Assembly: GCA_022446795.1 (NCBI GenBank)
Contig: JAKVBX010000016.1
Location: forward strand, 1-64,000
From: Phycisphaerales bacterium
GTDB taxonomy: Bacteria; Planctomycetota; Phycisphaerae; Phycisphaerales; SM1A02
Direction of reading: 5' to 3'
DNA length: 64,000 nucleotides
Positions within the stretch are counted from its first letter, which is position 1. Every line of letters starts with the position of its first letter. This document shows positions 4,379 through 40,759 of the stretch, in pieces. A program made the translations under genes and the position numbers. Under the pieces are notes generated by a model. That model worked only from the letters and a program-made list of their open reading frames with translations, made no database searches and was not told where the DNA came from.

Positions 4379-4550
4379 CAACTCGCAGCAGCACCTTCCT
4401 GAATTATCTGAATTGACGTCCCCTCTGGATGCCAGTGAGGGCAGTCGCCCAGTGTGCTCATTGGCCCGTCTCGCGGGCATGGAGCGGTCTGGGCTGGTCC
4501 CTGTTGTTGTCTCTTGGCTGGAGCAAGTCGGCTGAGACGGCCCACAAGAG

Positions 4551-4597
4551 CCGCTGCGGCCCGCCGTGGGAGGAAGCCAGTCGACGGGCCGCAGCGG
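4551..4597. terminator. 13-bp perfect inverted repeat between convergent genes
   Basis: CCGCTGCGGCCCG (4551-4563) is followed after 21 bases by its exact reverse complement (4585-4597). It sits between the subtilase stop (4378) and the stop of the convergent minus-strand gene (4649), so it could end transcription from both sides. No T-tract follows in either direction, so a classic Rho-independent terminator is not proven. Confidence 0.5.
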
Positions 4598-4618
4598 GGA
4601 GATGTGGAGACGATCGAG

Positions 4619-4636
4619 GCCTGCCCGCAGGCAGGC
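4619..4636 (-). terminator. Short GC hairpin downstream of the propeller/beta-helix gene
   Basis: GCCTGCC (4619-4625), a 4-base loop, and GGCAGGC (4630-4636). Read on the minus strand it lies 12 bases past the stop codon at 4649. There is no T-tract, so the terminator role is inferred from position only. Confidence 0.4.
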
Positions 4637-4648
4637 CCGGGGGGCCGA

Positions 4649-7177
4649 CTACGTGTCGCAGGGGCCCCAGCCAGCGACCATCATCAACACATCAGTGACA
4701 TCCACGACGCCATCGAGATTCACGTCGGCGGGGCAATCCGCCCCCGGGCAGTCGCCCCAGTTCTCGAGTGCGGCCAGGATGTCATTGCTGTCGACGATGC
4801 CATCACCGTCCGCATCAGTGCAATCGCATTCATCGCTCACGATGGTGCCGCCAAGATCGTTCCATGGCCCCAGCAGGTTTCCGCCGGAGTGGCCACAGAA
4901 GGTGGAGGCGGACACGTCGAGCGTGCTCTCCGCGATCATCACGCCACCACCCGGCAGTTCGGACGTGTTGTACCGGAACTCGGATCGATCAAGCTGGACC
5001 GTGCTTTCGTTGATCACCAGTCCACCACCCGTGAAGGCCGACTGGTTGCCGAGAAAGACGCTGCGGGTGATCGAAACCTGGCCGTCGGTGATGGCGAGGC
5101 CACCGCCACTGCCGCCCTCGAGTGACTCGCCGAAGGCGACATTGTCGTGGAACCGGCAGTCGATGAAGACGGCCGTGCCATCACCACTGCCATCCACGCA
5201 GGCACCACCACCACGAGGCGCGCGATTCCCTCGGAACACGCAGTTGCTGATGGTCGGTGCGGCGTTCCTGATCAGCAGACCACCGCCTGGCCAGGGAACG
5301 TCGGCGCCGGTCAGCGTGAAGCCATCGAGAAGGTGGTCACTGGTTCCCCGCTCGCTCTGGATTCGAACGACGGTCGAGTTGCGATCGCCCACGATACTGG
5401 TGTGCCCCGGGCCCTCTTCCGAGATCAATGCGACGGGGTGATCCGGGAACACGATCGGTCCGTGGTAGGTGCCCGGGCCGACCATGATGGTGGCGGTCGG
5501 CAGGGCGACATTCAAGGCCGACTGGATGTCATCGAAGAAGGCGCTGCCGTCGGCGGCCACTCGCAGCGGGATGAGCGGATGGCACTCATCCGGTGAGCCA
5601 TCATCATCGGAGTCGGGCGAGGTGCCCTGGGCGATGTCACAGGAGTCCGGCACGCCGTTGTCGTTGCAGTCCGGTTCGAACCCCTGGGCGATCTCATCAT
5701 CATCGGGCCAGCCATCGGCATCGCAGTCGGCCTCGCAGGCGTCGAGAACGCCGTCACCGTCGACGTCATCGAGGCCGTCGGCCAGATCACAGTCGTCCGG
5801 GACGCCGTTGCCATTGCAGTCGCGGCTGGCGAAGGACGCGATGTCGAGTTCATCACACAGGCCATTGCCGTTGCAGTCGTCGCCATTGTCGAAGGTCGAA
5901 ATGGTGTGGATGTCGACCAGGTCGGCACCGATCAGGTCGTTCGGGGCGGCGATGATGAGTTGGTTGCCGGACAGGTCGGCCTGAGGCGCGGTCCAGTAGG
6001 ACGCGGGCAGATCGGACCAGGCAATCGTCTCCAGGAAGGCCCACTGGCCGTCCTTGAGCTGGTAGAGCTCGGCGAAGCCGACGTCTCCCGGGTCGTCGTA
6101 GGACACCGTGCCCGAGGTCACGGAGACCAGTGAACCCTGCAGTCGAACACCATGTCCGAATGCCTCAGGGTCGGCGTCATTGGACTGTGACGACAGTTCC
6201 TGTTCGATCGCCCAGTTCATGCCGTCGTGGTGCAGGACATGGACACGACCGTTGCCGTCTTCGTCCCGCGATCCGATGACGGCTCGCGGGCCATCCAGGT
6301 CCACGCTGCGGGCGAGACGGGTCACACCATCGATCGCCAGTTCCTCCGACGCTTGCCAATGTCCATCCTCGTTGGTGAAGATCTTGAGCGTGTCCAGGGC
6401 CAGGCTGCCAGCCAGGATCGTGTTGTCATCAATCGTCACGTCCACGCCGAAAGAGGCGCCGCTGTGCGGACCATCGTCGGGGAGGAGAATGTCCTGCCGA
6501 ACCCATTGGCGGCCCACGCGGCGAAAGACATGGGCACTGCCATTGTGTCGTCCGAATGGCGTGTACTGGGGCGCTCCGACGACGGCAGCATCTCCCGAGA
6601 TCGCCACCGAGATCCCGAACATGTCCCGGTACTCGGGATTGTCTGATTGCAGCGTTGCTTCCAGCAGCCACTGCCCATCAAGCCGGTGGTAGATCCTGGC
6701 TTCACCATGGCTACCATTGCAATCTCCTGGCAGGGAGACGATCACCCGATCGCCGGAGATGCTCAGCATTCGCCGGGGAAAATAGAAGCACCCGATCGAG
6801 TCCACGTCGATCCGGGCCTCTTCGGCCCAGGTGCCCTGTGTATTGCGATAGAAGAGAATCCGGTCTTCGTAGGGACCGTCCGGGGTCTGCTCGGCCACGA
6901 ACAGCACGGCGAGATCCGCTTCGATGGCGACATCGAGCGTGTAGAAGTCCGGTGCGGCGGAGTAGTTCAACTCGGTCAGCAGCCCTTCGCAGGCGGTCGA
7001 GCGGTCGCGTGGTGCCTTGGCGTCACGAGGGAGATGCCCGGTCGAGGCGGTCTCATGAACCAGGTGTGGCTTGGTCGAGTTGGCGGGTGCCGGCGCCTCA
7101 AGGCCGAGTGCCATTGAGCCCAGGAAAACGGCCATGGCCAGTCGTGTCTTGTGAGTGTGCATAGCGAGGGATCCCAT
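4649..7177 (-). CDS. Secreted beta-propeller / Ca-repeat / beta-helix protein with dockerin-like tail
   Basis: 842 residues from the ATG at 7177; an in-frame ATG at 7162 is an equal alternative. Both give a signal peptide with hydrophobic core LAMAVFLGSMALGLEA. Neither has a clear Shine-Dalgarno, and the longer open frame upstream is rejected as Arg-rich non-coding translation. Domains in order: FG-GAP/integrin-type beta-propeller repeats (about 60-430; for example FGISVAISGDAAVVGAP), then Cys-containing calcium-binding repeats of thrombospondin type 3 style (about 432-533; DCNGNGVPDDCDLADG). Next is a right-handed beta-helix (about 535-760; IMVGPGTYHGPIVF, NCVFRGNRAPRGGGA), then two EF-hand-like loops and the end GWGPCDT. 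The core is clearly paralogous to the genes at 8707-12459 and 15735-20432. No catalytic motif is seen; a structural or adhesive surface role is inferred. Confidence 0.87.
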   Translation of the reverse strand: MGSLAMHTHKTRLAMAVFLGSMALGLEAPAPANSTKPHLVHETASTGHLPRDAKAPRDRSTACEGLLTELNYSAAPDFYTLDVAIEADLAVLFVAEQTPDGPYEDRILFYRNTQGTWAEEARIDVDSIGCFYFPRRMLSISGDRVIVSLPGDCNGSHGEARIYHRLDGQWLLEATLQSDNPEYRDMFGISVAISGDAAVVGAPQYTPFGRHNGSAHVFRRVGRQWVRQDILLPDDGPHSGASFGVDVTIDDNTILAGSLALDTLKIFTNEDGHWQASEELAIDGVTRLARSVDLDGPRAVIGSRDEDGNGRVHVLHHDGMNWAIEQELSSQSNDADPEAFGHGVRLQGSLVSVTSGTVSYDDPGDVGFAELYQLKDGQWAFLETIAWSDLPASYWTAPQADLSGNQLIIAAPNDLIGADLVDIHTISTFDNGDDCNGNGLCDELDIASFASRDCNGNGVPDDCDLADGLDDVDGDGVLDACEADCDADGWPDDDEIAQGFEPDCNDNGVPDSCDIAQGTSPDSDDDGSPDECHPLIPLRVAADGSAFFDDIQSALNVALPTATIMVGPGTYHGPIVFPDHPVALISEEGPGHTSIVGDRNSTVVRIQSERGTSDHLLDGFTLTGADVPWPGGGLLIRNAAPTISNCVFRGNRAPRGGGACVDGSGDGTAVFIDCRFHDNVAFGESLEGGSGGGLAITDGQVSITRSVFLGNQSAFTGGGLVINESTVQLDRSEFRYNTSELPGGGVMIAESTLDVSASTFCGHSGGNLLGPWNDLGGTIVSDECDCTDADGDGIVDSNDILAALENWGDCPGADCPADVNLDGVVDVTDVLMMVAGWGPCDT

Positions 7178-7537
7178 GGAAAGAAGTAGAGGACGGTTCG
7201 AGTCACGAACCTCTCCATGCGACGTGCCTGCGTGCCGGGTCGGTGCGCGCCGTCTGGAACGACACCTCGCCGCCGTTGAGACACGGCGATTCACGTGTGG
7301 CCGAGTGCTCATCGCCATGATGAGACAAGCGGCCCGTTCTGGTTCCCTTGCGTGGTTGGCGGTGTGCTGTTCACCGCCCGGTTGAGATAGGCACGAGATC
7401 GTCTCGCGAGCGCGGCCCGATCGTGTCATTCCAGGTCGTGATTGTCATCAGGGCGACAAAGAACATCGCGTGCGCCGCGGATAAGACCGGGCGCACGCGT
7501 CATGGTGTGTTCCGTGTTGTTCTCTCGAAGCGGTGGT
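7178..7537. other. 360-bp gene-free stretch
   Basis: It lies upstream of the 4649-7177 gene and downstream of the 7538-8446 gene, both on the minus strand. It should hold the promoter of the first and the terminator of the second. Apart from the hairpin at 7467-7499 I see no convincing promoter box, RNA or small gene. Confidence 0.5.
7467..7499 (-). terminator. 10-bp inverted repeat downstream of the LMDQIG-domain gene
   Basis: CGCGTGCGCC (7467-7476) and GGCGCACGCG (7490-7499) are perfect reverse complements separated by 13 bases. On the minus strand the stem begins 38 bases after the stop codon at 7538. There is no T-tract. The terminator call rests on stem strength and position. Confidence 0.5.
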
Positions 7538-8446
7538 TCAGCCGCAGTTGCCCCATCGGCCGATCACCAGCAGCACGTCGTTGACATCCACGGTGCCGTC
7601 CAGGGTCACGTCGCCGGGGCAGTTCCCGTCGGCGGGGCAGCCGCCCCAGGATTCCAGGACCGAGAGGATGTCATTCACATCGACGATGCCGTCGCTGTTG
7701 ACATCGGGGCACTCGCACTCATCCGGGATGCCGTTGCCATCGGCGTCCTGGCTGCTGCCGTCCGCGATGTCATCGCTGTCGGGTGTTCCGTTGTCGTTGC
7801 AGTCGGGGCTGGTTCCGGTGACGCGGAACGCGAGATTGTCATCGATCTGCCAGTAGGCACCCTGTCCGAAGCCGAAGCCGGGGTTGGCCTGCCAGGCCAC
7901 GCCATCACCAACGGTTGATGCGAGTACCGAGACCTGCCCGTTGTTGCTGAACTCGTTGAACGGGACCATGGCGACGTACTGGGTGCCACTGTTGAGTGCC
8001 CAACCGGAATCGCTGGTCGCCTTGATGAGGTCGCAGCCGCTGAGACCCCAGGAACCGTTTCCGGAGGGGACGCCCGCGATGTTCTCGGTGACGTACCCGA
8101 GGAGATTGTTCTCGGCAGCCTCGGAGTAGTGGTTGTAGAAGTTGACCTGGAGGCCCTGGATACCGGAGAGGCCGTTGTATCCGTTCCATCCCTTGATCAC
8201 GACTTCGACGGAGGTGACCGTTGCGGCCCCGCTGTTGTCGAAGTTGTCGGTGGCGACGATGTCGTAGACGGCGAAGTTGCTTTCGAAGAGCTGGTTGGCG
8301 TAGTCCCGGGACGTGGCGATGGCGGACCCATCGTCCGATCCGATCTGGTCCATCAGGGTGACGGTCTCATCCGCGGTGGCGGTCATGGCCAGGGCGGCAA
8401 CGGCCAGGCAGGCACCCAGTCCTTCGGTAGTCATCATCTTCGCCAT
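7538..8446 (-). CDS. Secreted LMDQIG-domain protein with Ca-binding repeats and dockerin-like tail
   Basis: 302 residues. The ATG at 8446 has a strong Shine-Dalgarno (AAGGAGG, about 7 bases upstream). Residues 1-25 are a signal peptide (CLAVAALAMTATA). Residues 28-212 form a beta-rich domain with the phrases LMDQIGSDDGSAI, ANQLFESNFAVYDIV, GIQGLQVNFYN and FGFGQGAYWQID. The same phrases recur at the N-terminus of the 1565-residue protein at 15735-20432. Two 19-residue Cys/Asp repeats follow (DCNDNGTPDSDDIADG), then two EF-hand-like loops (DVNSDGIVDVND, DVTLDGTVDVND) and the end RWGNCG. I do not recognise the N-terminal domain; its layout suggests an exported binding module. It is the simplest member of the local family. 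Confidence 0.87.
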   Translation of the reverse strand: MAKMMTTEGLGACLAVAALAMTATADETVTLMDQIGSDDGSAIATSRDYANQLFESNFAVYDIVATDNFDNSGAATVTSVEVVIKGWNGYNGLSGIQGLQVNFYNHYSEAAENNLLGYVTENIAGVPSGNGSWGLSGCDLIKATSDSGWALNSGTQYVAMVPFNEFSNNGQVSVLASTVGDGVAWQANPGFGFGQGAYWQIDDNLAFRVTGTSPDCNDNGTPDSDDIADGSSQDADGNGIPDECECPDVNSDGIVDVNDILSVLESWGGCPADGNCPGDVTLDGTVDVNDVLLVIGRWGNCG

Positions 8447-8643
8447 CAGATCCTCCTTGCCCCGCTACGTTGACCGTAGCCCAGGCTTCGCTCGATGCTG
8501 CCAAAAACAGGCCTTCAGGCCCCTGTCCGGCGCCGGAAGGTCGGAAAAATCCGCCTGGAGGCTCGAAATCCGACCCTGGCGGCTCTCCTGGCTACTCCAG
8601 GAGGCCTCACGGGCCCCTAAGGCCCTTTCAGACAGCCCCTTAT

Positions 8644-8694
8644 GGCCCTCGGCGTTCCACGCCCCCTGGGGGGCGTGGAACGCCTTGGAGGGCC
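8644..8694 (-). terminator. Long hairpin (about 23 paired bases) downstream of the double-propeller gene
   Basis: GGCGTTCCACGCCCCC (8651-8666) pairs with GGGGGCGTGGAACGCC (8669-8684), a 16-bp stem with a 2-base loop. After a 3-base bulge (8685-8687), GGCCCTC (8644-8650) pairs with GAGGGCC (8688-8694). On the minus strand it starts 12 bases past the stop codon at 8707. It is the strongest fold noticed in the window and has no T-tract. Position supports a terminator or 3'-end-protecting structure for the upstream gene. Confidence 0.6.
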
Positions 8695-8706
8695 GGTAGG
8701 GTCTGT

Positions 8707-11700
8707 CTATTGGCAGGTGCCCCATCCACTAAGGACGCTCAGGACGTCCAGGATGTTCACCTCACCATCGAGATTCACATCCCCGGGGCAATCCGCCAGG
8801 GGAGCGCAGGGGCCCCAGCCCTCCAGCACGGCCAGGACGTCATCGGTATTGACCTGGTCATCACCGTTGGCGTCGGGGCATTCGCACTGGTCGCTGAAGG
8901 CGTTGCCGCCCAGGTCCGTCCAGGGTCCCAGCAGATCCGAGGGGTCATTGCTGCAGAACGAGGACAGCTCCACGTCCAGCAGGCTGTCGATACTCGTGGC
9001 ACCGCCGCCGGGCAGATCCGACCGGTTGTAACGGAACGAGCATTCCGACAGCAGCACGGTTCCACCGTTGGCGATCAGCCCACCACCGGTGAACTCGGAC
9101 TCATTCGCGAGGAAGTCGCTGTTGGTCACGAGCACATCGGCATTGGCGGCCGCGAGTCCGCCACCGCTGCCGTCGTACTGGTCATCACCGGTTGCGGTGT
9201 TCTGCAGGAAGCGGCAATTGGAGAAGACACAGGGTTCGCCGGCCGAGCCCACGATGTTGACGCCACCACCACGTTGGGCGGTGTTGCCTCGGAACGTGCA
9301 GTTCGTGATCTCGGGCGAGGCATTGACAATGCTCAGTCCACCGCCGAGGTCGAACGATCGACCCTGTGCGAACGTGAACCCGTCAACACGGGTATCCGAA
9401 CCCTGGCCGTTGGCAATCACCATCGCCCCCTGGTAGTCGCCACCAAGGATGATCGTGGCATCAGCGCCATCCTCGGAGACCAGCGTGATCGGGTAACGAG
9501 GCAGGGCGATCGTGCCCGAGTAGGTGCCCGGACCCACCGAGATCGTGCTGCCCGGCAGGGCCACGACCAGGGCGGCCTGGATCGTCTCGAATGGCGCCGT
9601 GCCATCGGCAGCGACGCGGATCAGGTAATCGGGGTCACACTCATCCGGAACGCCGTCACTGTTCTCATCGGGCGATGAGCCACTCGTGACGTCGCAGGCG
9701 TCCGGGATGCCATTCCCGTTGCAGTCGGCTTCGAAGCCCTGTTCGATCTCGTAGTCATCGGGCACGAGATCGCCATCGCAATCTGGTTCGCAGGAATCGG
9801 GAATACCGTCGGAGTCACCGTCACAGACCACTCCCTGTGCGATATCACAGGCATCGGGAACACCATTTCCATTGCAGTCCTGGCTGATACCGGCGTTGAT
9901 TTCCAGGGTGTCGCAGATCCCATCGAAATTGCAGTCGCTCGTGGCGGGGTTGCCCGGCGGCACCACGGCATACACGGAAATCTGTGAGAACGCCGAGAAG
10001 GCATCATCGATGAACCCGCCGGCCACCTGGTTGCCGGACAGCGCGACACGTGGGGCGGACAGCCAACTCTGGGGGAGACCGATGTCCTCGAAGGTCTCGA
10101 TCTCGTTCCACAGTTCGCCATCGAAATGGAAGACGTGGATCTTTCCGGAGGGATTGCCCGAGAAGTCCCCGAAGACTCCCGAGCTGGCGGCGATGAGATC
10201 GCCATCAGCTCTCACGGCGAAGCCGAGGCTGGAATTGTCCAGGTTGCGGGACTCGAGCATCTGCTCGAACACCCATTCGTTCTTGTGCCTTCGGAAGACC
10301 ATGGCCAACCCGGATCCGCTGCTCAGGTCGTATGTCCCGACGGCCGCGACATCGCCATCGATGTCGACGGAACTGCCCACGTTGTCGCCGTCGACAGTCA
10401 GTTGCTGGGTCTCGACCCAGGACTGGCCGTCAAAGGTGTACACCCAGGTGTCCTGTTGGAGGCTGCTGACCATGATCGTGTCGTTGTCAACGGCCACGTC
10501 ATTGGCAAACCAGTCCGGGGCCGGAGTGGGCGCCAGTTCGGCCTGCTTCGACCAGTAGTTCCCGATGCGACGATAGACCACGGCCCGGCCTTCGGCGTTG
10601 CGAGTGTCCCCGACGACGGCGACATCGCCCGAGATCGAGACACTGATGCCGAACTGCGATTCGGCGTCGCCGGGGATGTTCGCCTCCTGGTTCCATTGGC
10701 CATCCTGCCGCCGGAAGATGCGAACCGCGCTGGCCGCTTCCGTCACGACCCCCGCGATCACCGTGTCGCCGGAGATGTCCAGTCCCTTGAATGGGAAGTA
10801 GATGGAGTAGTCCGACTGAAGCAGGGGTTGGGTGCTCTCCAACTGCCAGTCGCCGTTCTCACGGTGATAGAGGAGGACTTCATGCGTGGAGGAGGTGCCA
10901 TTCCAGTCGAGGACGGCTGCGATGTCACCCGAGATGGCGATGTCACGGCCATCGGAGAGGCTGCCGTCGCCGGTGCCGTCATAGTTCATTTCCTGCTCCA
11001 GGATCGAGCAGGGCAGGGGGCACTCGTCCGGAATGCCGTCGCCGTTCAGGTCTTCGCTGGTTCCATCGGCGATGTCACACTCATCGGGGGCACCGTTCTG
11101 GTTGCAGTCAGGACTGGAGCCAACCAGGATGTCGCACGTGTCCGAGACGCCATTCTGATTGCAGTCGTTTTCGCCCGAGTCAGGGACCACGAGGTAGCTG
11201 TAAGCGCGGCCGGAGGATGTTCCATTGTCATCACTCCCGGGCATGCCGATGACCGTGATGTCTTCGACAAGATCCAGGGCGTAACCGAATCCATCTTCAG
11301 CCTGGCCATTGGGTGGAACCAGCGTTTCCACCTGGAGCCACTGGCCATCGTCATCTCGTTGGAACACGCAGGCATAGCCGGGGGTCGCCGGCGGCGCGTC
11401 CATTCGGGTGGGTGCGCCGACCAGGGCCCGATCGCCTTCCAGGGCAACCGAGCTGCCGAACTGGTCATAGGCGCCAGCGTCCATGGCCGTGAGCTTGGCG
11501 ACCTGGGACCAGGACTCGGTGCCATCCCATTCGAAGATGTAGGCGCTTCCGGTGTGGGTGCCGCCATCGTTGTCCCAATGGGCGCCGATCAGTGCGCGAT
11601 CGTCCTGCAGGCTGACGCGATAGCCGAAGCTGTCAAAGGACTCGCCATCGGAAGCCCTGAGCTTGGCACTGGCCATCCAGTCACCCTGTGAAGACCTGCG

Positions 11701-33391: not shown

Positions 33392-33473
33392 TGCGGGTGA
33401 GAGGATTCGAACCTCCACGGGTTGCCCCACTGGAACCTAAATCCAGCGCGTCTGCCAGTTCCGCCACACCCGC
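33392..33473 (-). tRNA. tRNA-Leu (UAG)
   Basis: On the minus strand the 7-bp acceptor arm GCGGGTG pairs with CACCCGC followed by discriminator A. The anticodon stem CTGGA/TCCAG encloses the loop TTTAGGT, giving anticodon UAG (Leu CUN). A long variable arm (GGG-loop-CCC type) and a T arm with TTCGAAT confirm a class II tRNA. The 3' CCA is not encoded. Length is 82 bases. Confidence 0.95.
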
Positions 33474-33578: not shown

Positions 33579-34226
33579 ATGAGTTTCAGTCGAACAGCCG
33601 GGGTCACGATCGTGCCGCTCCTGAGCCGGATCGTGCTCGGTGCCGCATTCCTGCTGGCGGGGTGGTACCACTGCTTCTCCAATACCACGTTCACGGATGA
33701 CCAGGTCCAGCAGATCGAGGCGATGCAGACCAATGCCCGTCCCGTTCCGACGATTCACCTGGCGGCCCTGCAGGGCAATGACAACGCGTCCGAGCCGGCC
33801 GAGGCCGAGGCGGAGCCTCCGGCTGATCCCAACAGCAAGCGAGCGGTGTATCACTTCGCGTTGGATCTGCACAGCTGGGGCATTACCAAGGGGGCGATCC
33901 CACTGGCCTGGGGTATCGCGGTGTTCGAGATCGTGGCGGGTGCGTTGGTCCTCCTGGGCCTGTTCACGCGGCTCTGGGGTTTCCTCATGGCGGGATTGAT
34001 CGGGACCGCATTCGTCTTGACGAGCGTGCAACGTGATGCCATGTTCGACGTGAACCCCTTCACCTGGCGTGGCGATCCATCGTCGTACTACGAACTGTTC
34101 TTCCAGTTGGCAGCGTTCGTGCTGGCCATCGGACTGTTCGTCACCGGTCCGGGCGTCCTGGCCCTCGACAGCATGGTGTTCGGTCGTCGAGACGCACCGC
34201 CGGCGACCCCGCCGGCCTCCTCGTGA
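33579..34226 (+). CDS. DoxX-like integral membrane protein
   Basis: 215 residues from the ATG at 33579, with GGGAG about 10 bases upstream. An in-frame ATG at 33513 would prepend a polar non-conserved stretch. Four hydrophobic segments are seen: IVLGAAFLLAGWYHCF, then after a polar Glu/Pro-rich insert of about 75 residues WGIAVFEIVAGALVLLGLFT, MAGLIGTAFVLTS and LAAFVLAIGLFVTGPG. The pattern matches DoxX/DoxD-like proteins, whose roles range from thiosulfate:quinone oxidoreductase subunits to uncharacterised membrane proteins. The extracytoplasmic insert after helix 1 is unusual. It lies 34 bases before the VWA gene and may head that operon. Confidence 0.75.
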   Translation: MSFSRTAGVTIVPLLSRIVLGAAFLLAGWYHCFSNTTFTDDQVQQIEAMQTNARPVPTIHLAALQGNDNASEPAEAEAEPPADPNSKRAVYHFALDLHSWGITKGAIPLAWGIAVFEIVAGALVLLGLFTRLWGFLMAGLIGTAFVLTSVQRDAMFDVNPFTWRGDPSSYYELFFQLAAFVLAIGLFVTGPGVLALDSMVFGRRDAPPATPPASS

Positions 34227-34260
34227 CAGGCTCGTAGCGAGACAGCAGGGAAGACGGCGG

Positions 34261-35220
34261 ATGGGCAACGGTCATCGATCCGAACGCCCCCGATCCGGCC
34301 GACACCGGGTGGTGCCGTGGTTGGCATCGATCCTGCTTCATGCCGGTCTGATCGTGATCGGGCTGATCGTGACCTGGTCCGTGATCCGGACCGAGTCGCG
34401 TCGACCGCCACGACCGATCGTCGCGGACTTCCAGGCGACCGCCTTCCTGCCCGTCGACGAACTGCCGGATGTCGAGACGACTGCCCCCGCGGACGTGCCT
34501 TCCGAACTCGAGCCGCCGGAGCCGGTGGAATTCACCCTGCCTGAAGACGTGGATACGGTCTCGGCGCTCTTCGAGGCCTCCCGGGCCGGGCAGTTCAATG
34601 TGCAGGAACGCGAGACCTCGTTCGCAGGCGTGAGGATGACCAATGCGCGATCCATCGTGTACGTGATTGATGCCAGTGGAAGCATGACCACCTGGCTGCC
34701 CCTGGTTCTCCGGGCGTTGCGTCGGTCACTGGATCGACTTGATGCGGCCCAGCGATATGCCGTGTTCTTCTTCCAGGGCGGTGATGTCGTGGCGGTACCG
34801 CCGGCGGGTCGGCTGCAACCGGCGACGCCTCGGGCGATCAACGAAACGATGGCCTGGACGAGCCGGGGGGCCAACCTGATTCCCGGTCGTGGCTCGGATC
34901 CCACCGCGGCCCTCGAGGCCGCCTTGCAGATGGAACCCGACGTCATCTTCCTCCTGAGCGAAGGGCTCGCCGGTGCCGGGGCGTCCACGATCGATGAGAC
35001 CCGGTTGATGGAACGGTTGGATGAATTGAACCCCATCGCGGATGCGGTCACCGGTAACCGATGGACCCGCATCCAGTGCATCCAGGTCGGTGGGGAGCAG
35101 GATGAAACCACGGGAGAGAGGACAGTGATGAGACGAATTGCCGATCGACATGGAGGCCCGGAGGCATGGACCTTCCTGGGGCGATCGGACCTGGATGAAG
35201 ACCAGGGAGGAGACCAGTGA
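34261..35220 (+). CDS. Membrane-anchored von Willebrand factor A (VWA) domain protein
   Basis: 319 residues; the ATG at 34261 follows an AGGGAAG stretch. A short basic N-terminus leads into one transmembrane helix (PWLASILLHAGLIVIGLIVT, about 25-45), then a Pro/Glu-rich linker. The VWA domain runs from about residue 130 to 310. The metal-ion-dependent adhesion site is intact: DASGSM (D-x-S-x-S), a Thr in GSDPTAALEAAL, and an acidic residue after DVIFLLSEG. The topology puts the VWA domain outside the cytoplasmic membrane. The gene overlaps the following exbB-like gene by one base (TGATG), implying translational coupling. A role as binding or load-bearing partner of the ExbB/ExbD motor is inferred. 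Confidence 0.85.
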   Translation: MGNGHRSERPRSGRHRVVPWLASILLHAGLIVIGLIVTWSVIRTESRRPPRPIVADFQATAFLPVDELPDVETTAPADVPSELEPPEPVEFTLPEDVDTVSALFEASRAGQFNVQERETSFAGVRMTNARSIVYVIDASGSMTTWLPLVLRALRRSLDRLDAAQRYAVFFFQGGDVVAVPPAGRLQPATPRAINETMAWTSRGANLIPGRGSDPTAALEAALQMEPDVIFLLSEGLAGAGASTIDETRLMERLDELNPIADAVTGNRWTRIQCIQVGGEQDETTGERTVMRRIADRHGGPEAWTFLGRSDLDEDQGGDQ

Positions 35221-35975
35221 TGAAGACCGGAGTGGGATCGATGATGAGCGTCGCGATTGGCGGCCTGGCCCTGCTGGGCATCTCCTCACCGGGACGGGCG
35301 GCGCCGGTGGAGCAGTCCTTCGCGGATGCCTTCTTCATCGCCCGCCGGGCCGATGGCAACCTCGAACTCCTCGGGAGCATCGTCATCTGGCTCCTGCTGG
35401 CCCTGTCGATATTCGGCATTGGCTTGATCGTGTCGATGGCCATCTCCAATCGTCGCCGGACGATCCTGCCGAGGGATTCGGTCAAGCGGATCGGCGAGGA
35501 ACTCAAGAAGGGTCGCTACGAGCAGGCCATCGCCGCGGCGGAAGCGGATGGAAGCTACTTCGGTCGCGTCCTGTCCGGAGGCCTGCGGCAGGCGACGCAT
35601 GGCTATGACGCGATCATCCGTGGACTGGAACAGTCTGCGGCGGAAGAAACAACGATTCGTTTCCGAAGAATCGAACTGCTGAACGTCCTGGGGCAGGTGA
35701 GCCCGATGATCGGGCTCTTTGGAACGGTCTACGGCATGATCCTGGCCTTCGGTGCCATCGTCGCCAGCGGTGGTGCAGCCGATCCGGTCATGCTTGCCGG
35801 TGGTATCGGCACCGCGTTGACGACGACGTTCTGGGGACTGGTCGTGGCCATTCCGGCCCTGGCCGGTTACGCCCTGCTCCGCAACCGGATTGATGAACTG
35901 ACCGTCGAGGCCGCGTTGGAGGCCGAGGAACTCGTTTCGCGGTTCCGTCCCGGGAGCACCGAAGCCGCATCATGA
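35220..35975 (+). CDS. exbB: MotA/TolQ/ExbB family proton channel protein
   Basis: 251 residues; GGGAGG lies 9 bases before the ATG at 35220. The protein has an N-terminal signal-like hydrophobic segment (VAIGGLALLGI), one transmembrane helix (IVIWLLLALSIFGIGLIVSM), a cytoplasmic domain, and two further helices (VLGQVSPMIGLFGTVYGMI and GIGTALTTTFWGLVVAIPAL). The last two carry the GLxGTVxGM and ALxTTxxGLxxAIP signatures of ExbB/TolQ. Such proteins form a proton channel with ExbD/TolR that couples the proton motive force to work at the envelope. The extra N-terminal segment is a feature of some ExbB proteins outside Enterobacteria. It is coupled to VWA upstream and to the first exbD (ATGA overlap) downstream. 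Confidence 0.92.
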   Translation: MKTGVGSMMSVAIGGLALLGISSPGRAAPVEQSFADAFFIARRADGNLELLGSIVIWLLLALSIFGIGLIVSMAISNRRRTILPRDSVKRIGEELKKGRYEQAIAAAEADGSYFGRVLSGGLRQATHGYDAIIRGLEQSAAEETTIRFRRIELLNVLGQVSPMIGLFGTVYGMILAFGAIVASGGAADPVMLAGGIGTALTTTFWGLVVAIPALAGYALLRNRIDELTVEAALEAEELVSRFRPGSTEAAS

Positions 35976-36448
35976 GCGTCATCTTCCAACGTGGTCCGGC
36001 TCGCCCACAGGCGAGTCTCACGCCGATGATTGACGTCGTCTTCCTGCTGGTCGTCTTCTTCGTGGCCGTGTCGCAGATCGTCGACCAGGAGCGACTCGAC
36101 ATGGATCTCCCGGCGCCGAACCCCTCGGCGGCGCACCAGCCGGCCGAGGGTCCGCGTGCCGTTGTGAACGTCATCCCCGGACCGGGTGGTTCGAGCCTGG
36201 GCTACCGGGTCGACGGGCTGGTCTTTCCTGCTGACGCGGTGGGACAACAGTCATTGGCGGATCACCTTCGAGATCGCATGGACCGATCGCCGGGCCTGTA
36301 CGTGAATGTCCGGGCGGATCGACAGACGGGCTGGGGCTGGGTGGCTCCCGTGCTGGGCGCGGCGCGGCATGCTGCGGCGACCGCATCACCGCCACTGCCC
36401 GCGGCACGCGTGCGGGTTTCGGTCGAGCCGGCAGGGATGTCGCGATGA
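35972..36448 (+). CDS. exbD: ExbD/TolR family protein (first copy)
   Basis: 158 residues. The ATG overlaps the exbB stop (ATGA). A short cytoplasmic N-terminus precedes one transmembrane helix with the essential Asp: LTPMIDVVFLLVVFFVA. A periplasmic domain follows (about 45-155), with the family pattern of alternating strands and helices (YVNVRADRQTGWGWVAPVL). ExbD/TolR dimers complete the proton channel with ExbB. Two different ExbD proteins follow one ExbB here, suggesting a heterodimeric rotor. Confidence 0.9.
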   Translation: MSVIFQRGPARPQASLTPMIDVVFLLVVFFVAVSQIVDQERLDMDLPAPNPSAAHQPAEGPRAVVNVIPGPGGSSLGYRVDGLVFPADAVGQQSLADHLRDRMDRSPGLYVNVRADRQTGWGWVAPVLGAARHAAATASPPLPAARVRVSVEPAGMSR

Positions 36449-36957
36449 CAGTGACGCCGGCATCCCGTCGAATGATCCTGCCGACATCAACACGTCGCCC
36501 ACCGCGGATTGGTGTCAATCTCGCGGCCATGATCGACGTGGTGTTCCTGCTCCTGATCTACTTCATGGTGGCAACCGATTTTCGCAAGGGCGAGGAGGTC
36601 TTCCGGTTGGATCTGCCCGAGCGGCAGGCCGGGGCGAACGAGGCCCTGTATGACCTGGCCGAGGAGCCCCTGCTGATCCGGCTGCGGGAAGACCCGGCCA
36701 GCGACCAGGGCTACACGGTGACAATCGAGGGTGGATGGCCCGCCGTGGACGATGCCGAGGCCGTTGGCCGGTTCCTGGCCGCCAGCTTGATCGGTGGAAC
36801 CGCTTCGGCGGCGGCAGGTGGCGATGGAGGCTATTTCACGGCCGACCATCCCGTCATCATCGTGGCGACCCCGGTGACGGCCTGGGCCCACGTGGTGAGT
36901 GTCTTCAACGCCGTGGTCGGAGCGGGCTACGATGCCGTGTCGCTGGACGTCCAGTAG
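36445..36957 (+). CDS. exbD: ExbD/TolR family protein (second copy)
   Basis: 170 residues; the ATG overlaps the stop of the first exbD (ATGA). The transmembrane helix NLAAMIDVVFLLLIYFMVAT retains the proton-path Asp. The periplasmic part carries a Gly/Ala-rich insertion (IGGTASAAAGGDGGYFT) before the last strand-helix unit. It is only distantly similar to the first copy outside the helix, so this is an old duplication rather than a recent one. Confidence 0.9.
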   Translation: MTVTPASRRMILPTSTRRPPRIGVNLAAMIDVVFLLLIYFMVATDFRKGEEVFRLDLPERQAGANEALYDLAEEPLLIRLREDPASDQGYTVTIEGGWPAVDDAEAVGRFLAASLIGGTASAAAGGDGGYFTADHPVIIVATPVTAWAHVVSVFNAVVGAGYDAVSLDVQ

Positions 36958-36978
36958 ACCACGCAGGAGACATCGAAA

Positions 36979-39453
36979 GTGATTTGTTCGAACGCGATCG
37001 CAAGGCGATTGGTGGCAGGGCTGGCGGCCCTGCTGGTCCTGGGTGGTGTCGTGGGTACGACGGGGCTGGCACAGGACCCGTATGCCAATGTGACTGCTGA
37101 GAACGTTGATCGCCTCCGGCGGATGATCGACGCGGCGGATACCAACCCGGCAGATCGCGAGGCCATACTGGAGCAGGTGATGGACCGTCGCCGCGACCTG
37201 ATCGCGGCATCAGCGGATCATCCAGAGGTCCTGTTCTGGTGCGCCGCCCAGGTCGAGGACGACCTGCTCGTGGGCATTCCCATGAATGCGCTCGAGCTGA
37301 CTGTTCGGCATGGCCTGCCCTCGGTGGAGCAGCAGGACAAGGTGGACGCCTATGTCCGCGATGCGCTTCGATATCTCGCGATCCTGGAGGCGAACCTGCC
37401 AGCCAGGATTCAGGCCGAGCAGACCGCCCAGCGGACGGAACGGTATGAACTGCTGCGGGACAGGCGACTGCCTTTCCTGGAGGGCATCGCCCGGATCCTG
37501 GAGGCCGACCGCGGCATCGCATCGGATCCCAGTGTGAGTCGACGGGCCGGTATCGAACTGCTCGAACGCGTGCGGCCCGGCCTTCGCGGCGAGGATGCGT
37601 TGACAGCTGATCGGTACATCGCCCTGGGCTACCTGGGGCTGGGCGAACTCGATACCGCGCGGGCCATGTTCGAGAAGCTCCGTGCGGAGGAGATGGCCTC
37701 GCCATTGGACATGGTGGGCTATCGACTGGCGCTGGTGGATGTCCGAGGCCTGGATTCCGGGTCGCGGCGTGCCGCGGGCGATGCGCAGGTCGCTGCCGCG
37801 ACGAATTCCGATCCCCTGGAGAGACTGCTCCTGATCGAGCAGGCGGCGAAGTACTGGATGATCACCTCCCGTGCTGTTGCCGGGGAACCGGATGATCCCG
37901 ACGCCCAGGCCACACGCGATGAGTTGGAACGGAATGCGGCCGACGCCTTCCTGCTGCTTCATCCCGAGCAGGGCGGTCTGAACCTGTCCGATCAGCAGCC
38001 CATGCTGGACCTGCTCATCGAGCAACGACTGGGCCGACTTGATTTCCGGGATCCGGCGGCGGCGCACCTGCCGATCGTGGCCACGATCGCCGCGGCCGTG
38101 CCGCTGGCGGCCGAGCCCGAGACGGCGCAGCAGGCCCGTGACCTGTTGCTTCCATTGGTCGATCGTCCCGGGATCATGCCGCGGAACCGGGCCCGCATTC
38201 TCCGCGTGATGGTCCAGGCGGATGTCCAGGTCGACGACCGGCCGGCGGCCATTGAGCACGCGATCATGTGGTCGCAGGTCGCAGCGGATCGTCCCGAGGC
38301 GCACGGTGCAGCGGAACTGGCCGCAACGGTGGCGGGGCAGTTGGCGGCCCGGCAGCCGAATGATGAACAACTCGTGGCCCTGTACCAGAAGGCCCTCAAC
38401 AACCTCCTGGTGCACTTCCCCGATCATCAGAAGATCAACACCTGGCGACGTCGTTCCGGGCAGTTGGCGGAGCAGACTGGTCAATTGGAATTGGCGAGGC
38501 GGCGGTATGCCGAGGTGCCGCAGGATGCCGTTGACCGACCCGATGCACTGGCTCGAATCGCCGTGATCGTGGTTCGCGAAGCGGCGGCGTCCAACGAGTA
38601 CGACACCAAGGCCCGGACCCGAGCCGTGGCGCAGGCGAGGCAGGACCTGGAGAAGATCCAGTCCGAGTTCGAGCGGCTTTCGACCCGCTTCCCGAAGCGA
38701 TCGACGACCGCCCGGGCCAGCCTGGACCTGGCGAGTGCCCGCCTGGACATGCTGGAAGGGGATGCCATCTCGGCCCTGGACCGACTGTCCCGCCCGGGAT
38801 TCACCGAGGTTGATCCGACGCTGCGGCGAGCGGTTCACATGGCCCGAATCGAAGCGGCCATGAAGACGGGTCGTGCGGCGGCGGTTGATGCAGTGGTTGA
38901 CGGGCTTCCGGAGGAACTCCAGGTCGAAATCGCTCGCGCCATGTTGCCGACGGTCCTCGCCTACCAGGGGATTCCCCTGCCACGTGATCCACTTCTGGAC
39001 CCGGGGCAATCGGAAACAGCGCTCCGCCTGGCGCAGGTACTGGAAGCAGCCGGCCCCATGGACCCGGGGACGGAGATCCTGGTCATCGAGGGGTTGCGAC
39101 GAGGTGGCGATCCGGTCACGGCGTTGGCGCGGGCCGATGCCCTCCTGGCGTCCAACCCGGACCTGGGTGATGCGTTGTTGAGCAAGGCCGAGTGCCTGCA
39201 GGCGGATCCCGAGGCGGATCGGGCCGAGGCGATCGCGATCTACATCCGCCTGTCCAAGGGCGACAAGGCAGCCGACCCCGATCGATTCTGGATGGCGCAA
39301 CTGCGGCTGTTGCAGTCCATGGTCAAGGATGGGCGTGATACGCAGTCGGTTCTGGCCACGCTCAATCGATTGGAGCGTGAACACCCGGACCTGGGCGGAC
39401 AGCCCTATGTCGGGCAGTTCGCGGTGCTCCGCGGCCTGCTGGAACAGCAGTGA
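36979..39453 (+). CDS. Large exported helical-repeat (TPR-like) protein
   Basis: 824 residues. The start is a GTG at 36979 with CAGGAGA about 9 bases upstream, 21 bases after the second exbD. The N-terminus has a hydrophobic segment (RLVAGLAALLVLGGVVGTTG) read as signal peptide or anchor. The rest is almost wholly helical, with Ala/Leu/Arg-rich pairs of the tetratricopeptide type (YIALGYLGLGELDTARAMFE, AEQTGQLELARRRYAEVPQD). No enzyme motif is present. Position and export signal suggest a periplasmic scaffold or adaptor for the VWA-ExbB-ExbD complex. The resemblance to TPR is by pattern only. Confidence 0.8.
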   Translation: MICSNAIARRLVAGLAALLVLGGVVGTTGLAQDPYANVTAENVDRLRRMIDAADTNPADREAILEQVMDRRRDLIAASADHPEVLFWCAAQVEDDLLVGIPMNALELTVRHGLPSVEQQDKVDAYVRDALRYLAILEANLPARIQAEQTAQRTERYELLRDRRLPFLEGIARILEADRGIASDPSVSRRAGIELLERVRPGLRGEDALTADRYIALGYLGLGELDTARAMFEKLRAEEMASPLDMVGYRLALVDVRGLDSGSRRAAGDAQVAAATNSDPLERLLLIEQAAKYWMITSRAVAGEPDDPDAQATRDELERNAADAFLLLHPEQGGLNLSDQQPMLDLLIEQRLGRLDFRDPAAAHLPIVATIAAAVPLAAEPETAQQARDLLLPLVDRPGIMPRNRARILRVMVQADVQVDDRPAAIEHAIMWSQVAADRPEAHGAAELAATVAGQLAARQPNDEQLVALYQKALNNLLVHFPDHQKINTWRRRSGQLAEQTGQLELARRRYAEVPQDAVDRPDALARIAVIVVREAAASNEYDTKARTRAVAQARQDLEKIQSEFERLSTRFPKRSTTARASLDLASARLDMLEGDAISALDRLSRPGFTEVDPTLRRAVHMARIEAAMKTGRAAAVDAVVDGLPEELQVEIARAMLPTVLAYQGIPLPRDPLLDPGQSETALRLAQVLEAAGPMDPGTEILVIEGLRRGGDPVTALARADALLASNPDLGDALLSKAECLQADPEADRAEAIAIYIRLSKGDKAADPDRFWMAQLRLLQSMVKDGRDTQSVLATLNRLEREHPDLGGQPYVGQFAVLRGLLEQQ

Positions 39454-39465
39454 ACCGGAAAGACG

Positions 39466-40353
39466 TCAGGACGCCTTGGTCTCGGGCAGATCAGTGCCCT
39501 TGGCCAGTTGCTTGAAGAGGTGACGACGATCGTCATTGAGCCTCGCCTTGATTCGGCGAAGCGTGTCGACCTCGATCTGCCGCACGCGCTCCCGGGTCAG
39601 ACCGACGATCACGCCGATCTCCTTGAGTGTCAATGGTGCCTGGCCGGAAAGACCGAAGCGGAGCTTGAGCACGCGGGCTTCGCGAGCGTCGAGGTTGTCG
39701 ACCATGTTCAGGACGGCCTTGATCTGCTCGTCCTTTTCCGACTTCTCGAACGGCGGGGCGTACCGACGATCTTCCACCACGTCGGCGAAGTCCAGCGCCT
39801 GGCCATCCTCGCCTGTCGGGGCGTGGGAGGAGGACTGGTAGGCTCGCATGGCCCGGACGATGACACCGATCTTCTTGAGCGGCAGGTCCATGGCCTCTGA
39901 CATCTCGTGGTGATTGGGACCGCGTCCCAGTTCGTCTTCCATCCGTCGGTAGGTCTGCTTCCATCGCCCGATCAACTCGACCATGTAGGCCGGGATGTGG
40001 ATGGGCTGGACAGCGTTGATGAGTGTTCGCTTGATGGCCTGCTTGATCCACCAGGAGGCATAGGTGGAGAAGCGGGCACCCTGGGCGGGGTCGAAGCCTT
40101 CCACGGCGCGGATCAGGCCGATGTTGCCTTCCTCGATCAGGTCCGACAGTGACAGGCCGCGTCGGGTGTAGTGCTTGCTGATGGAGACCACCAGGCGGAG
40201 GTTTGCACGCACCATCCGGTCCTTGGCTTCCAGGTCGTTGTCATTGATCACGAGCCATCCCAACTCCTTCTCTTCCGCAGGAGTCAGGAGGGGGGTGCGG
40301 TTGATTTGCTTGAGATAGGTCTCAAGATCGCGATCGGATGTGCGGTAAGCCAT
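39466..40353 (-). CDS. RNA polymerase sigma-70 family factor, RpoD/SigA-like (group 1/2)
   Basis: 295 residues from the ATG at 40353 ([14 protein letters not shown]); an upstream in-frame ATG at 40398 is less likely. Region 1.2 is [16 protein letters not shown]. Region 2 contains [18 protein letters not shown] and the 2.4 helix [15 protein letters not shown]. Region 3 and region 4 follow, with the helix-turn-helix [20 protein letters not shown]. There is no long acidic region 1.1. The length and region 2.4 sequence match primary-type factors; whether it is the housekeeping or an accessory group 2 factor cannot be settled without the rest of the genome. It is convergent with the TPR-like gene (12-bp gap). 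Confidence 0.92.
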
Positions 40354-40759
40354 GAGAGGATGATCCCCGGGTGTTCGTCTCAGACGGGTACTGTTCATCC
40401 GCCACCAACCGCGGAAAACCGTGTCTGAGGTCTCAACCAACTATGCGTCCGGACTATCCGGATGCTCTCATCCCGTCCCTCAATTCGTGCCTGATTGGCC
40501 CGGGGATGCACTTCTTCGGGCCTTATGGCCCCTTGCGGCCCCAGGTGGGCAAACTGGTTCGAACCAGTGGACTGGACGAGCGTTAGAATCGGTGTATGAA
40601 CGGGGGTTCTTGACCCCCAAGCAAGGCAAGAAACGGCATTTGGCGGGCAAGCGGCCCTATTTGGGGTCCACAGCCCACATAGGCGGCACAGATGGACCCT
40701 TGGGCCCGGTGTGACGCCTCCAGCCCCCTCTAGTTATCCCGGGGAAGGATGTGTGACGG
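40354..40759. other. 406-bp divergent intergenic region
   Basis: It lies between the sigma factor start (minus strand) and the UVR-motif gene (plus strand), so it should hold both promoters. It contains the 16-bp palindrome at 40553-40568 and a TAGAAT hexamer at 40584-40589. It also has a small hairpin (GGGGGT at 40602-40607 and ACCCCC at 40613-40618) and a GGGTCCA/TGGACCC inverted pair (40664-40670 and 40693-40699). The open frames that cross it look non-coding. A long structured leader for the UVR-motif gene is possible. Confidence 0.5.
40553..40568. promoter_or_regulatory. 16-bp perfect palindrome, possible operator
   Basis: ACTGGTTCGAACCAGT is a perfect 16-bp palindrome. A TAGAAT hexamer (40584-40589, five of six matches to the -10 consensus) lies 15 bases downstream. 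With 17-base spacing the -35 region would fall inside the palindrome, as expected for a repressor site on a promoter reading towards the UVR-motif gene. The regulator is unknown. Confidence 0.4.

Follow-up and report, generated by a model that had tools for sequence, protein, structure and literature searches.

The window analysed here (64,000 nucleotides, positions 1 to 64,000 of the forward strand of contig JAKVBX010000016.1, from the Phycisphaerales bacterium assembly GCA_022446795.1) contains a run of six genes. They encode a DoxX-family membrane protein, a protein with a von Willebrand factor A (VWA) domain, an ExbB-type channel subunit, two ExbD-type subunits (ExbD1 and ExbD2) and a large repeat protein resembling tetratricopeptide repeat (TPR) proteins (Table 1). 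The DoxX and VWA genes are separated by 34 nt, the VWA/ExbB, ExbB/ExbD1 and ExbD1/ExbD2 junctions are 4-base overlaps, and a gap of 21 nt lies between ExbD2 and the helical-repeat gene. An alternative ATG for ExbB is found at position 35220. The original prediction, made from this DNA alone, had described an operon for a possible energised envelope machine in which the VWA and repeat proteins may receive the force. The operon is borne out, the open reading frames (ORFs) and their junctions being real and the arrangement recurring in relatives beyond chance, and the features of the VWA protein described below support its role as force receiver.

Table 1. Coordinates of the operon, of the motifs of the VWA protein and of the bordering genes (positions in the window).
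Feature	Position	Strand	Evidence
DoxX-family membrane protein, 215 aa, first gene	33579-34226	+	PF07681, E 1.2e-6 (Pfam)
VWA-headed TonB/TolA-like putative force transducer, 319 aa	34261-35220	+	ORF, motif, predicted fold
Codons of Ser-x3-His (S23 to H27), transmembrane helix of the VWA protein	34327-34341	+	computed from start 34261
Codons of the proline-flanked D-box-like segment (P50 to P64), VWA protein	34408-34452	+	computed from start 34261
Codons of the first motif of the metal ion-dependent adhesion site (D137 to S141), VWA protein	34669-34683	+	computed from start 34261
ExbB/TolQ/MotA-type channel subunit	35217-35975	+	Pfam MotA_ExbB, E 2.4e-26
ExbD/TolR-type subunit 1 (ExbD1), transmembrane Asp D21	35972-36448	+	Pfam ExbD, E 2.5e-14
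ExbD/TolR-type subunit 2 (ExbD2), transmembrane Asp D31	36445-36957	+	Pfam ExbD, E 2.4e-13
All-helical repeat (TPR-like) protein, 824 aa, signal-like N-terminus	36979-39453	+	predicted structure
tRNA-Leu gene, upstream border of the six-gene run	33392-33473	-	
Sigma-70-type gene, downstream border of the six-gene run	39466-40440	-	

The VWA protein is composed of a transmembrane (TM) helix (residues 14-44) carrying S23 and H27, a D-box-like segment (50-64), a disordered linker and the VWA domain (about 117-315). The strongest hydrophobic stretch ahead of the VWA domain is located near the N-terminus (window sequence PWLASILLHAGLIVIGLIVTW). An alignment of 69 VWA rows was realized (one from the window, 67 from the loci and one from an additional copy in locus L076), in which W20 is conserved in 68/69 rows and the Ser in 67/69. 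The His is present in 69/69 rows, which is no blind count and partly a product of trimming, since the trimming rule required a His within the hydrophobic stretch (the sole row lost was the contig-truncated L032). A listing of the most hydrophobic stretches made without this requirement agrees with the same picture of His and Ser conservation. The pattern S...H occurs in the TM segment of 67 of the 69 TM-bearing VWA ORFs (70 ORFs in total, the window's included), against a background of 17 among 979 TM-like segments from the remaining ORFs of the collected loci, read in all six frames; by eye, 14 of these 17 are the same motif recurring in one enzyme family. Ser-x3-His corresponds to the part of the SHLS motif through which TonB (Ser16, His20) and TolA (Ser18, His22) touch ExbB and TolQ, respectively, as described in PMC12215075.

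The D-box-like segment is found 26 residues after the His. It lies between two prolines, P50 (78% of rows) and P64 (87%), and positions 53, 57 and 62 are hydrophobic in 90, 94 and 78% of rows. The spacing is that of the E. coli TonB D-box, which is captured by the ExbD dimer and whose predicted strand (46-49) lies 26 residues past His20, according to PMC10907165. The linker, about 73 residues in the window (from the helix end at 44 to the VWA start at about 117), has a median proline content of 14% over the rows. With its Ser-x3-His membrane helix and D-box-like segment, the VWA protein is itself most likely the TonB/TolA-type lever of the motor, as judged from these sequence features, and the earlier statement that neither TonB nor TolA is encoded here has to be revised on that account.

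The AlphaFold2 model of the VWA protein has a mean predicted local distance difference test score (pLDDT) of 80, with values > 90 across most of the VWA domain. The best VIA-align match is 6fpy_A (Z 17.8, root-mean-square deviation 2.3, 163 residues aligned) and the Foldseek list is headed by VWA domains. The assignment of the fold comes from structure prediction, the Pfam match to VWA_2 being weak and below the cut-off (E 0.01). The metal ion-dependent adhesion site (MIDAS) had been read as intact. Its DxSxS motif is indeed kept (D137 69/69, S139 68/69, S141 63/69), but the Thr ligand is replaced by Ser (68/69; Thr 0/69) and the third metal Asp is Asp in 11/69 and Asp or Glu in 42/69 rows, the window having Glu. 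The full ligand set (DxSxS, Thr, Asp) is thus absent from the window VWA, and the earlier reading of an intact MIDAS holds only in part for the window family. In the paralogous type, represented by a second VWA gene of the same genome and by genes from 12 loci of the phylum, an alignment read by eye gives Asp as third ligand in 13/13 sequences and Thr in 11/13, so that the reading of an intact site does apply to the paralogue.

The ExbB-type subunit matches PF01618 with 92.4 bits (cut-off 22.9), and its best-scoring solved chains are TolQ. Row counts for ExbB and the ExbDs refer to 81 rows (the window and 80 loci), each row being the best match of its locus; in L058 one and the same gene supplies both ExbD rows, a second ExbD not having been found in the search of that locus. 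Many pore-helix residues of ExbB (TM2-TM3) are invariant over the 81 rows, including T170, T203, T204 and P213. S64, conserved in 81/81 rows, is aligned to TolQ Ser28, the residue that contacts TolA His22 (PMC12215075). The residues S54 and W58 were considered as the Ser-Trp contact pair and rejected, the profile alignment placing S64 on TolQ Ser28 and I68 on the Trp. The TM Asp, taken as the proton Asp, is present in 81/81 rows of both ExbD1 and ExbD2, and it is therefore plausible that two unlike ExbDs, each of them competent, form a pair. The heterodimeric core suggested earlier for the two distinct ExbDs is a possibility that fits these sequences.

Relatives were gathered by searching a single collection with ExbB, and 80 of the 98 loci found were kept. 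By single-sequence search, 68/80 kept ExbB loci hold a VWA gene and 60/80 a DoxX gene, and a profile places a large repeat gene downstream in about 68/80 loci (the one counted for L063 is a spurious short frame, and a further one comes from L072). Among the 12 loci lacking the VWA gene, seven are cut by a contig end (L018, L020, L024, L049, L055, L064, L080), so that the gene is present at 68/73 loci with upstream sequence; the five uncut ones are L048, L059, L060, L063 and L071. A search of the whole genomes of these five and of L055 recovered a strong VWA match in 6/6 (E 1.1e-82 to 6.1e-122). In five of the six, DoxX is directly beside the unlinked VWA gene (L149-L153), with no ExbB match within the 1.5 kb examined; in the sixth (L148), DoxX, VWA, ExbB, ExbD and ExbD are found together at another place. 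Breakdown of the gene order in close relatives had been named beforehand as a refuting result; the order is kept in close relatives, but in some genomes the motor genes stand apart from the DoxX-VWA pair. The record of L060 is titled Vicinamibacteraceae (Acidobacteriota), yet its ExbB falls inside a planctomycete clade of the tree, and the bin is perhaps mislabelled.

The VWA profile matches 326/392 genomes of the phylum, a count that includes ordinary VWA domains. Within the same family or order, 30/31 listed genomes have a VWA match of 1.6e-36 or better, and these matches are taken as mostly of the window type. Genome G376 has a match at the paralogue level alone (9.9e-24), and G231 may possess the other type, its ExbB scoring at the paralogue level (1e-43, L121). 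Among 20 loci outside the order, hand-picked from the phylum listing, SxxxH is carried by 12/12 VWA genes near an ExbB match and by 4/8 without one (by eye). Tandem VWA matches were observed in L101, L103, L108, L109 and L113, all of the same order, and L076 likewise has two.

The large repeat protein has a confident all-helical solenoid model (pLDDT 94) and no Pfam match, its fold being known from structure prediction. It begins with a signal-like sequence in the window, and so, as judged by eye, do most of the relatives listed. In the consensus built from the window and 52 of 60 full-length relatives listed, the best-conserved stretch is near the C-terminus, which makes this stretch a natural candidate for a contact site, by conjecture. 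Fold matches to the repeat protein were uninformative, consisting of varied TPR solenoids with query TM-scores of about 0.14-0.27 and near-tied Z values; a Campylobacter flagellar scaffold chain (9hmf_K) was among these rejected generic matches. In some relatives a small extra exported-looking protein with a TPR-like C-terminus is encoded between VWA and ExbB (at least L015, L021, L026, L033, L036, L041, L042, L046, L050, L057 and L076, a minimum list, some loci being missed by the gap rule). In the window and its nearest relatives L006-L010, the VWA gene adjoins ExbB and the small TPR gene is absent.

The same genome contains a second, paralogous cluster on contig C77 (L123, G000:C77:15000-30000; 4842-11170, minus strand), in the order VWA, small TPR-like protein, ExbB, ExbD, ExbD, an 880-aa protein and a 1019-aa protein. 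This VWA protein has an SVVVH helix and a complete MIDAS. The 880-aa protein is exported-looking and occupies the place of the repeat gene, and is unmatched by the repeat-gene profile; the 1019-aa protein has no clear Pfam match. All 81 sequences of the window type fall into a single clade of the ExbB tree (100/93); the ExbB of C77 groups with sequences from across the phylum, though on long branches.

TonB-like and motor genes are present elsewhere in the genome. On contig C15 (L127, G000:C15:16000-25000; 3226-4913, minus strand), an ExbD gene adjoins a gene for a 443-aa TonB-like protein with an SVVLH helix, a proline-rich linker and a weak match to the TonB C-terminal model TIGR01352, below the cut-off (E 0.0093). 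The pair lies behind gyrase-like and STAS-like ORFs (by eye), and no ExbB match was found beside it. A TonB gene elsewhere had been named as something to look for; the C15 gene answers to that description, but it has its own ExbD and gives no sign of using the ExbB/ExbD set of the window. Contig C10 (L126, G000:C10:48000-57000; 3411-6586, minus strand) carries a small ExbB together with a short ORF resembling ExbD. A third gene there encodes a protein of 260 aa that is rich in proline, has a GLH membrane helix and gives a weak GltG-like match, well under the cut-off; the three are possibly a further lever-motor set. Contig C34 has a lone ExbB, with zero ExbD matches within the 7 kb examined, and contig C1 has a MotA-like gene and an OmpA-domain gene near ORFs which we take to be FliP/FliO-like. 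OmpA-domain ORFs, each at most a candidate for a Pal-like protein, number three in the genome (two on C45 and the one beside the C1 MotA-like gene) and zero in the operon.

Profiles of the partners of TonB and Tol systems were unmatched in this genome. No TonB_C match exceeded the cut-off (marginal matches at E 0.34 and 0.60), and Plug, the TonB-receptor barrel and TolB_N each gave zero matches at E 0.1, each of these three profiles being positive in 3/14 controls, including E. coli. Such absences by profile are weak and no proof: the genome is 96% complete, and the TonB-like protein of C15 itself escaped the TonB_C profile.

Upstream of the operon, a class-II DAHP (3-deoxy-D-arabino-heptulosonate 7-phosphate) synthase gene lies on the opposite strand; the immediate borders of the run are given in Table 1. 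Scans for promoters and terminators gave numbers of sites about equal to those of shuffles, or lower.

Force transducers with a vWA domain have been predicted in the Planctomycetes-Verrucomicrobia-Chlamydiae group, with function unknown (Williams-Jones et al. 2025, PMC12204202), so that the system is not the less described one it had been thought to be. As far as its description of the class goes, that work reports the vWA gene often downstream of TPR-tolQ-tolR-tolR, the full SHLS in many members, and the strand of the motor box (D-box) in a disordered region past the helix. Judged by this description, the operon belongs to the class, which so far exists as a prediction. The likeness covers the Ser-His half of SHLS, the disordered linker, the vWA C-terminal domain, a tolQ-like gene, an unlike tolR-like pair and a TPR gene nearby. 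The differences, in terms of the same description, are that here the vWA gene is upstream, DoxX is attached, the full SHLS is absent and the metal site departs from that of the paralogue type. DoxX, a changed metal site and the occurrence of two parallel SHLS-type systems in a single genome all go unmentioned in the vWA section of PMC12204202. What is added here is the alteration of the metal site with respect to the paralogue type, the tie of DoxX to the VWA gene and the absence of the small TPR gene from the window lineage.

Compared with TonB-ExbB-ExbD, the operon has the same ExbB/ExbD-family motor and a lever with the Ser-x3-His helix and a proline-flanked segment at equal spacing, but a VWA domain replaces TonB_C (no TonB_C match in the lever at E 0.1) and TonB-receptor profiles are unmatched. 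With Tol-Pal (TolQ-TolR-TolA-TolB-Pal-CpoB) it shares the TolQ likeness of ExbB and the closing of the operon by a TPR protein, as the E. coli tol-pal operon is closed by CpoB; a link between the repeat protein and CpoB was examined by Pfam alone. It differs from Tol-Pal in the unmatched TolB_N, in a VWA head in place of TolA domain III and in having two TolR-type genes.

Taken together, we consider that the operon encodes a proton-driven motor moving a TonB/TolA-like lever headed by a VWA domain, with a probability of about 0.7 for this explanation in full; the motor and lever without the rest are held with somewhat greater confidence. By analogy with TonB and TolA structures, the motor would be of the 5:2 type, an ExbB pentamer surrounding a pair of unlike ExbDs. 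The N-terminal helix of the lever would dock on the outer face of ExbB through Ser23 and His27, and the proline-flanked segment (about 50-64), just outside the membrane, would be captured by the periplasmic domains of the ExbDs. Protons passing through ExbB and the two ExbDs would then make the motor pull on the linker and hence on the VWA head. At the far end we can offer a guess: the head might grip a periplasmic partner, for which the helical-repeat protein is the best candidate, and through it act on the wall or outer membrane. An adaptor is favoured because the linker has little length for extending to the outer membrane by itself.

A housekeeping role in the envelope, comparable to Tol-Pal, is suggested by the near-universal presence in the order, the housekeeping gene neighbours and the unmatched TolB and TonB-receptor profiles; it is put forward tentatively, at somewhat less than even odds, and is conjectural as to function. 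Less likely still is a more specific version, a Phycisphaerales-specific housekeeping subtype that would replace Tol-Pal in pulling on the outer membrane, with DoxX as fixed membrane partner of the lever, the VWA head as a metal-independent grip on the long TPR solenoid in exchange for its metal-dependent site, and the second machine, with its metal site intact, working in parallel.

Several observations weigh against the motor-and-lever interpretation, in addition to the trimming effect on the His count and the weakness of the absences by profile. The second half of SHLS is lost, the Leu place being Gly/Ala in 69/69 rows and the second Ser place Thr in 54/69; these two places are also less conserved in Ton, according to PMC12215075. 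The pattern of the D-box-like segment is looser than the published one, the monomer model contains no strand there, and the segment sits in a model region with pLDDT < 50 (56-67). The contact Trp of TolQ/ExbB is not conserved, I68 being at that place, and the proposed docking is argued from the motif and from analogy. The gene order is broken in some relatives (L059, L060, L063, L071), and in L115, L117, L118 and L119 a repeat-protein match follows VWA with no ExbB match within the 1.5 kb or less examined. The repeat gene, finally, may not be essential, since four loci (L012, L013, L014, L084) have none in the stretch from ExbD2 to the sigma gene, while those of L017 and L022 are short.

Of the competing explanations, a surface-motility motor fares best, although we regard it as improbable. 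The operon would here serve gliding as AglRQS does in Myxococcus xanthus, the VWA head being an adhesin-linked carrier. The composition agrees, since AglRQS is made of one TolQ-like and two TolR-like subunits, and the C10 cluster, separate from the operon, has the GltG-like match mentioned above. The vWA adhesin of Myxococcus gliding is CglB. In its treatment of these transducers, PMC12204202 also suggests gliding and names AglRQS among such motors; for the secreted vWA protein of gliding in Myxococcus, however, it gives AglZ. Against gliding, no match to gliding families was obtained for eight window proteins (Pfam) or for six (NCBIfam), the operon proteins included, and near-universal presence in the order suggests a more general role. 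Anchoring of the lever in the inner membrane is a further difference from AglRQS.

It is very improbable that the VWA protein, instead of being a lever, serves in assembly or regulation in the manner of MoxR/Bat systems. Combinations of VWA and TPR proteins do occur in those systems and the metal site of the window is altered, but a MoxR-type ATPase is absent among the eight window proteins scanned (Pfam), and the Ser-x3-His helix and the D-box-like segment would be left unexplained. Marginally weaker is the explanation in which ExbB and the ExbDs are an ordinary energiser for the C15 TonB-like protein, with the VWA gene a mere neighbour. Such a protein exists without an ExbB gene seen adjoining it; yet its own ExbD adjoins it, the lone C34 ExbB could serve it, TonB-receptor profiles are unmatched in the genome, and the VWA protein of the window carries the docking motif and co-occurs with window-type ExbB even where unlinked. 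An anti-phage motor such as Zorya can practically be set aside: ExbB alone gave a weak ZorA match (E 0.0074), a scan of six proteins yielded no further match to a defence family at E 0.01, and both the operon and its surroundings are stable throughout the order.

Among the levers that ExbB/ExbD-type motors drive, the well-studied ones are TonB and TolA; a VWA-headed lever is known, as far as we have found, only from predictions. With a VWA-headed lever as the preferred explanation, the conserved docking residues, the two parallel copies in one genome and the unmatched TolB and TonB-receptor profiles make the energising of the outer membrane a question that becomes testable in planctomycetes open to culture and mutation.

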